From Aphelenchoides besseyi (taxonomy: Eukaryota; Nematoda; Chromadorea; Rhabditida; Aphelenchoididae): a stretch of DNA of 64,000 nt. Position 1 is the stretch's first letter. The number at the start of each line of letters is the position of its first letter. The DNA is taken from positions 6,882,001 through 6,946,000 of the forward strand of contig JAMPIQ010000001.1 in NCBI GenBank assembly GCA_024699855.1. Direction: 5' to 3'. Positions 37,241-40,200 of the stretch are shown piece by piece. The notes under the pieces are model-generated. The model searched no databases. It was not told the origin of the DNA and was given only the letters and a program-made list of their open reading frames with translations. Position numbers and translations under genes: made by a program.

Positions 37241-40200
37241 ATGTTGCCCGCCGGCGGTGGTGCGGCCGATTTGGACATTACGAATTTGAATAAGCTTCAG
37301 GATCCAACCGGTCTTTTCAAATTAATCGAAATGGTTGGCAATGGCACATACGGACAGGTCTACAAGGCGCTGCATCGCAATACGTCTCAAATGACGGCCA
37401 TCAAAATCATGAACATCAACGAAGAAGAAGAGGAGGAGATCAAGATGGAGATTAACATGCTGAGAAGAGTGAGTTTCCGGCTTCCAATTGTTTTTATTTG
37501 TGGACACTTTAGTACTCACTGGACAATCCAAATATCGCAAAATATTTCGGCGCATTCATCAAAAAGATTCCTTCATCCAACGGCAAACGACTCGATCAAT
37601 TGTGGTTGGTCATGGAGTTTTGTGGAAGCGGTTCGGTGACCGATCTCGTCAAATCGACCAAAGGAAACTCATTGGAAGAGGATTGGATCGCTTACATTTG
37701 TCGAGAAGTTTTGAATGTAAGCTTTTCCAATGCACATATTCTCTCAACATGTGTCTTCAGGGTCTGAGTCATTTGCATAAGCATAACGTGATTCATCGAG
37801 ACATCAAAGGACAGAATGTGTTGCTAACAGACAACTCAGAGATTAAACTTGTGGATTTTGGTGTTAGTGCTCAGTTGGATCGAACTATTGGCCGCAGAAA
37901 CACTTTTATTGGAACGGTAAAATTTTACGATTTGAATTAACGTTTAAATTTTATTTTGGTTTTCTTTTCATTTTGTCTAATTTCTTAAGTTAAACCAAAA
38001 TAAAATAAGACGCTTAATTTCTATTGCGAGCACAATTGGGATCGTTTTAGCCGGTAGGTGATCTCGTATAGTATCTTATATAAAATGAATTTAGTACTAC
38101 ATGGCTCCTGAAGTCATTGCATGCGATCAAGATCCTCATGTAAGTTCGATTAAAGAAATTTGGTAACCGTTTTTGTAGGCAACATACGATCATCGTTCGG
38201 ATTTGTGGTCACTTGGAATCGCGGCAATTGAAATGGCCGACGGACATCCACCACTCAGTGATATGCATCCATATCGAGTAGGTTGTTTGTGCTAAGCATT
38301 GATATGAGTTGATTTCAGGCTCTTTTCCTCATTCCACGAAACAATGCTCCACGATTGAAAAAGGGGAAAAAATGGTCCAAAAAATTTGAAGCTTTCATCG
38401 ACACGGTGCTCGTCAAAGACTACAAACTTCGTCCGTTTACCGACAATCTTCTTAAACATCAGTTTTTCCGCGATTTGAATCAATCCATTGAACAAAAAAT
38501 CAAGGACTCGATTCGCGATCACATCGACCGGTATCGTCGAGCAAACAAAAAAGATGAAACTGAATACGAGGTTGGTTGTTTGGATCGACTCTTCGACTGA
38601 TACTTCCATTTTAGTACTCTGGCAGTGAAGAAGAAGACCATAACGGAGTATCGAATGGTCAAAATCGAAGAGTGGTTCAATCGACAAACGATGACACACT
38701 ACGCAACGGATTCCAACGCATTCAAGAAGCAAATCGAAATGCTTTCGAACAACCGGGAGTTCAGCAGCTGAAGCGTGTGCCAAATGGATCACCCGCTGCG
38801 CATAACAAATCAAATCATCAACAAATGAATTTGGGGCCTGTCGGATATCGTGGATCGGCTGCTAGCGGCTATCCGATTGGTGGAGCCAAAGAAATGCAAC
38901 GAGATCCCGTGAAAATGCGACACGATTCACGACTGGGTCCTCAGCTGCGAATTGGTGCTGCCGGAATTCCATTGGCAGAATATCGACGACATTCAAGACC
39001 AGTTTCCCATCACCAAGCAGTAGGTTCTATCTCATCTTCACAGTGTTATGGTTGTTTGTTTAGGTCTCTCCAATAATCAACGCCGCTGCACCTCATTTGG
39101 CCGAATTGGCTCAAAACGATCGAAAACGCCGCGAAAAAGCTGCGGCTTTTCAGCACGCGCATCACCATCGTGATTTACGTGAGTCACATCGCAATGGTTC
39201 GGGACGTGACCGATCTGGCGCTCGTCTTCTGCCAGCTAATGGCAATCATTTACCTCCTTCATCTCATTTGGCTAAGGTCAGCGCCTCTATTCCCGTTCCA
39301 TCTGTATCGCCACTAAGAAAAATGAGTGAACCGATGCTGAATGGTCGTCCCGAGGTTTGTTCGTTGTTATGTCATAAAGAGCTCTGTTTTCTCAAACTAA
39401 TGCGGTTGTAAATCAATAGTCGAAAAAGAGCTGCCGACATTAACGACCGATTCTTATCATTTGATAAAATTTCTCTTGTAGGATTTGGATTTGTTGGCAA
39501 GTGAGTTGAATCGAATGGGCCGGCTGCCGAACTCAAGTTCCGTACAACCACAAGCCGCTTCACCGCCACCTCCTGCTCCACCAACCCGAAACACGTCTAT
39601 TACCGTCGACTCTCATACGAACAACACATCCGTTGAAAAGCATCAACATATGGACGGTTTGGTTGATGGAACGCTTTTGGCAAGTGAACCGGCTATTTTC
39701 CATTCTGATGGCACACTTCGCGGCGGTCCGAATAAACCGCTTCCTCCGACGCCTGCCGATTTAACTCCCGATTCGGATGGTGGACTCAACGATGGAACGT
39801 TGATGTTGAATCGAAAACACTCGCGAAACAACAGTCAATCGAGTATTCGTCGGCGAAACAGCGGATCGATTACCGATCTTCCAGCAGCAAATGGTTCTTC
39901 GCATAATCGTTTGTCGATGGTCGGCAAAGCGGCAAGTGTTCCAGATGTAAGTTTGCTTTGGCTTCTGAAGGCAAAACGCACACATTTGTTGAGCTTTTTG
40001 TCAGAATAGTGATTTGTTTCCGGTGGTGATTTGTCGACTATTTTAGCATCAACAACTCGCTGCGCCTTCTGATCGGCGACATACAAAGCTGATTGCATCC
40101 GTTGAAATCGAATCCTCGCCGTCAACATCGCCGAGCAGCGCTGGTGGATCAACGGGATTGTCGCCTGCGGATTCGCCGCGTGTTGAACCACGACGTTTAG

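Follow-up and report, generated by a model that had tools for sequence, protein, structure and literature searches.

Exons of only a few nucleotides are known from both animals and plants. Human TLN1 contains a 3-nt micro-exon that was found by RNA-seq and is described as conserved in mammals (PMC4317164). Plants possess conserved microexons of 1 nt to 15 nt, examples being those of APC11 and VPS55. The loss of such tiny exons from annotation is documented in plants, and short-read mapping misses them; junction reads for the 1-nt exon of soybean APC11 went from 7 to 81 and 88 once the exon was supplied to the aligner (PMC8831610). Among nematodes, C. elegans madd-4 has a 6-nt exon (PMC7706725; PMC8378409). 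Exons of 3 nt and of 1 nt are already known in human and plants, and the candidate described here, the trinucleotide CCG in a kinase gene of Aphelenchoides besseyi, is notable for coding a residue in the core of a catalytic domain. A literature search made mostly by titles and abstract starts, with most subscription journals outside it, found no case like it and no constitutive 3-nt single-residue exon. The best-matching papers on plant-parasitic nematode genera make no use of the term microexon, a Bursaphelenchus paper containing the word uses it solely for a read-mapping option, and mig-15, Ste20 and microexons are all absent from the main text of the 2014 A. besseyi transcriptome paper.

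The window is the whole stretch of DNA that was analysed, 64,000 nt at C1:6882001-6946000 of an assembly of 47.39 Mb in 31 contigs. The coding part of a mig-15/TNIK/MAP4K4-type kinase gene lies at 37241..42320 on the plus strand and comprises 20 exons, including the predicted 3-nt exon, for a protein of 1280 aa. The best solved-structure match of its kinase domain is TNIK (2x7f, E 9.2e-147), with which it aligns over its length. The chains of TNIK, MAP4K4 and MINK1 all score E <= 7e-141 while STK25, the next family, follows at 7.3e-74, and this bears out the MIG-15/TNIK identity given to the gene in the original prediction. MIG-15, TNIK, MAP4K4 and MINK1 form the GCK-IV group. A CNH domain is located at the C-terminus (PF00780, 1.8e-62, scored on the public model P0121, which equals the window gene at 1261 of 1264 aligned residues). 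Outside the window, the top-scoring genome match of the gene is 40% identical and shorter exon matches reach 61%; on this basis the window gene is taken as the sole mig-15 copy. The gene also contains a 42-nt GC-AG intron at 41765-41806, an intron at 42008-42052 and a 27-nt exon (IASLFGSYY, 40619..40645, plus strand) flanked by two long introns, one of 134 nt and one of 139 nt. Both public A. besseyi models contain this 27-nt exon, and the Bursaphelenchus xylophilus and A. bicaudatus models lack it. Elsewhere in the window, long open reading frames on the minus strand at about 21165-24110 look mobile-element-like by eye, with one stretch resembling an integrase and one frame resembling a Ulp1 protease. 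No RNA family in the window reached its gathering score.

Exon 3 (37761..37916, plus strand) ends in NTFIGT, encoded up to ATT GGA ACG/gtaaaatt, and the 45-nt exon that starts YYMAPEV (38095..38139, plus strand) opens with TAC TAC ATG GCT CCT GAA. Between them lie a 134-nt upstream intron (37917..38050, plus strand) with the weak donor ACG/GTAAAA and the acceptor TTTTAG, the predicted microexon CCG (38051..38053, plus strand) in the context ttttag/CCG/gtaggtga, and a 41-nt downstream intron (38054..38094, plus strand) that runs from GTAGGT to TTTAG. The positions first proposed for this arrangement, namely exon edges at 37916 and 38095, a gap of 178 nt and TTTTAG/CCG/GTAGGT at 38051-38053, are exact to the base. 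The joins around CCG are in phase 0, and CCG contributes one in-frame codon, the Pro of GTPYYMAPE. The coding sequence without CCG has a single stop, which is its last codon, so the gene is open end to end and the expectation that skipping would leave the frame unaffected also holds. In its sequence CCG has the marks of a microexon, being <=27 nt long, frame-preserving and flanked by usable GT-AG sites, but with a weak exon 3 donor (-0.06 bits). Elsewhere in the gene 13 of 17 introns measure 39-47 nt and 4 of 17 measure 100-139 nt, so the lengths of 134 and 41 nt are both normal for it, and the donor GTAGGT recurs at the intron at 38278. Two simpler sources of the Pro were rejected. Extension of exon 3 reaches an in-frame TAA 21 nt past the donor with no further GT earlier, and a 5' extension of the YYMAPEV exon fails at once because the codon preceding TAC TAC is TAG.

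The splice sites were scored against those of the 16 other canonical introns of the gene in a leave-one-out manner, which gave ranges of 2.4-9.1 bits for acceptors and 3.6-10.6 bits for donors. Cassettes were taken to be in-frame AG..GT stretches at a distance of at least about 30 nt from either end of the gap, and all were enumerated (n = 5). CCG, with an acceptor of 6.0 bits and a donor of 6.45 bits, is the sole cassette of the five that has both sites within the range of the gene. The other four (54, 48, 27 and 15 nt) were discarded because each had a poor donor or contained a stop codon; the next cassette after CCG, PVGDL, has a donor of -3.1 bits, and one of the four, whose acceptor at 3.1 bits falls within range, has a donor of -8.2 bits. 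Two features of the flanking introns count against the exon: the exon 3 donor, at -0.06 bits, lies beneath all 16 other donors (3.6-10.6 bits), and the 41-nt downstream intron contains no YTRAY branch-like match.

The residue that CCG would supply is nearly invariant. Homologues were sampled as the best 120 of 6959 matches and the best 120 of 7991 matches (n = 240), the query of the second search being a gene model without the split at intron 42008-42052 and without the 27-nt exon. GTPYW is present in 237 of these 240 listed homologues, in agreement with the near-invariance that had been ascribed to the Pro, and the Pro is missing in two, P0121 and P0122, both of which are A. besseyi proteins. 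The remaining one, P0129, is a public mig-15 model from Aphelenchus/Aphelenchoides avenae that lacks the entire activation segment; its sequence jumps from DFG to NPDATY, which is probably another annotation loss. A. bicaudatus reads GTPYWMSPE and B. xylophilus reads GTPYWMAPE. Among short protein fragments, most of them without a species name, GTPYW occurs in 118 of the best 120 of 995 matches; neither GTYY nor PYYM was found in these 120, and nothing near-identical was listed. The PF00069 kinase score is 205.4 bits with the Pro and 197.5 without it, while PF07714 slightly favours the opposite (141.2 bits with, 143.0 without) and so counts against the exon.

Compared with the canonical GTPYWMAPE loop, the window gene would have the Pro solely through inclusion of CCG, and its Trp is changed to Tyr. 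This replacement, also part of the original prediction, is real: the second Tyr of YYMAPEV occupies the position at which Trp is found in 237 of the 240 listed homologues. Many protein kinases ordinarily have Tyr at this position, so the change calls for no special reading; a GTPQYQAPE loop is present at another locus of this genome (L010). A. bicaudatus retains the Trp; the Tyr would have arisen on the A. besseyi branch, perhaps together with the exon split.

Both public A. besseyi models join FIGT straight to YYMAPE, which taken at face value counts against the exon and is also what would be expected if gene finders miss a 3-nt exon, as had been anticipated. P0121, which comes from another assembly, is 96% identical in the protein search, and P0122, from a second A. 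besseyi lineage, is 88% identical; the protein flanks FIGT and YYMAPE are unchanged in this 88%-identical lineage. P0121 and the window gene diverge at just three points, namely the absent Pro, the 42-nt GC-AG intron that P0121 reads through as coding, and the last exon junction. The three substitutions in P0121 among the 1264 aligned residues adjoin a junction that is placed differently in the two models. In P0122, as judged from the protein only, a frame-shift-like stretch follows residue 245, where the GTAGGT intron lies. These departures resemble mistakes of gene prediction at unusual junctions, and because the two models carry other faults, their missing Pro is weak evidence for skipping.

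Taken with the splice sites, the frame and the missing residue, the homologues argue that CCG at 38051-38053 is most probably a constitutively spliced 3-nt exon that supplies the near-invariant Pro of the P+1 loop and was missed by annotation. The microexon part of the original prediction stands. Its suggestion of a regulated one-residue switch finds no support, given a single gene copy and a Pro found in 237 of 240 listed homologues. Such a cassette, skipped in some tissue or stage to yield GT-YYMAPE with altered or lost kinase activity, is in our judgement unlikely. It would draw on a frame kept either way, on a long upstream intron (134 nt) with a weak donor, on the two public models that correspond to the skipped form, and on the C. 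elegans microexons of <=27 nt, many of which are described as regulated and neuronal in the available text of the sources (PMC7706725; PMC8378409). The skipped form, however, would lack the residue that nearly all listed homologues possess, and the upstream 134-nt intron has one TGC and lacks GCATG. Constitutive splicing is the more economical interpretation. Without CCG, the kinase would be one residue short in its substrate-binding loop, which would probably impair or abolish its activity.

The CCG exon is hard to put down to chance. When the gap was dinucleotide-shuffled 40,000 times, one shuffle yielded a 3-nt exon that coded for Pro and whose two sites scored no lower than the weakest of the gene, and 320 yielded a 3-nt exon with any sense codon. 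Thresholds just under the scores of CCG itself gave 0 of 40,000, and we prefer the looser test. A scan of 274,648 strand-bases of genome (the window plus 21 loci, some overlapping) found two Pro sites, one of which is CCG, and 24 sites with any sense codon. The second Pro site, at 7390, looks like an ordinary exon start since a 223-aa open frame begins there. This count replaces a tile control (10/5856), which was set aside because the tiles contained loci selected by the pattern. In the 47.4-Mb genome the strict pattern TTTYAGCCNGTRRGT is found 4 times, versus 3 times for its reversed control. Strict 3-nt-exon patterns as a class show no genome-wide excess (70 matches versus 121 in the control), which counts against the exon and indicates that 3-nt exons are not common in this genome. 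The non-random aspect of the CCG pattern is its place and not its genome-wide frequency.

A rival reading is a true loss of the Pro in the A. besseyi lineage, in which 37916 would join 38095 and CCG would be a chance match within a 178-nt intron. The two public models that read FIGTYYMAPE, the change of the adjacent Trp and the weak upstream donor would all agree with such a loss; we nevertheless hold it to be very unlikely, since a Pro-coding exon with good sites appeared in the gap in only one of the 40,000 shuffles, the kinase domain can be aligned to TNIK along its length, and the public models are faulty elsewhere too. An error of assembly or decay of the gene copy, to which the loop junctions of two other kinase genes (L054 and L055) that are not cleanly joinable as assembled might point, is highly improbable for a gene whose lone stop is its last codon, which is the sole mig-15 copy found, and which matches a protein from another assembly at all but three aligned residues.

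If CCG is constitutively included, we infer the manner of its splicing as follows. A 3-nt exon is unable to hold U1 and U2AF at both of its edges together, so the two introns would have to be removed in turn. The 41-nt downstream intron, with good sites and a typical length, would be removed in the first step, leaving CCG fused to the front of the 45-nt exon, 48 nt in all. In the last step, the weak donor ACG/GTAAAA would pair with the remaining acceptor TTTTAG/CCG. The short intron likely goes first because its sites are good and the upstream donor lies below the 16 others. Site strength would thereby order both steps and secure steady inclusion of CCG.

Other Ste20-type kinases of this genome also carry introns in the P+1 loop. 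By eye, such introns were seen in L054, L055, L057 and L059, besides 37917-38094 of the window, with positions that differ from codon to codon (GT^P^Y, inside the Trp codon, M^A, and inside the Ala codon of APE). In L002, L011 and L058 the loop has no intron. The intron of L055 follows GSPCWMA and has no in-frame AG acceptor as assembled, and such assembly junctions need care. We surveyed the 70 strict patterns, of which 54 were examined and 16 left out; a best join was obtained for 44, with a stop codon in 4. The survey is a coarse filter, as its mig-15 row was itself joined to the wrong flanking exons. By eye, a conserved protein minus one codon appeared only for mig-15 and for a SPAK/OSR1-type gene, L054, whose next best genome match is 40% identical. 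At L054:1631-1680 (G000:C2:6885631-6885680) the sequence reads TTTTAG/ATG/GTAAGT, followed by a 41-nt intron and then GCCCCAGAAGTT, and the candidate ATG exon would supply the Met of GTPCW-M-APE. L054 is not put forward as an unambiguous second case, because the intron in its Trp codon puts the two sides out of frame as assembled; the place of that intron within the Trp codon is common to L059. At least 2 of the 70 genome-wide patterns thus lie in the P+1 loop of Ste20 kinases. A wider scheme, in which tiny exons arise repeatedly in the Ste20 loops of this genome and a regulated one-codon exon toggles the P+1 Pro and so switches catalysis, strikes us as decidedly unlikely.

Constitutive inclusion of CCG, if confirmed, would mean that a conserved signalling kinase relies on one codon being spliced in accurately, and the gene, most of whose introns are close to 41-45 nt, would offer a clean natural test of how the spliceosome handles an exon too short for exon recognition. 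Public nematode proteomes may miss catalytic-core residues through annotation, which matters for the modelling of these kinases.

The gene resembles the MIG-15/TNIK/MAP4K4/MINK1 kinases in having kinase and CNH domains, and it differs from them in that its activation segment apparently contains a one-codon exon and Tyr replaces Trp. The microexons of C. elegans likewise belong to a nematode, measure <=27 nt and are often a multiple of 3, as CCG is; unlike the constitutive exon favoured here they are alternatively spliced, and in the available text of those sources the shortest named is 6 nt and none is named in a kinase core (PMC7706725; PMC8378409). The human TLN1 micro-exon, as far as the available text describes it, matches CCG in being exactly one codon, whereas CCG rests on sequence evidence and its host is a nematode kinase gene (PMC4317164). 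The plant microexons, in the available account, are RNA-proven and conserved across many species, which sets them apart from CCG, yet they provide a close parallel: like them, CCG is tiny and would be mostly included, missed by annotation and recovered by comparison with homologues (PMC8831610).
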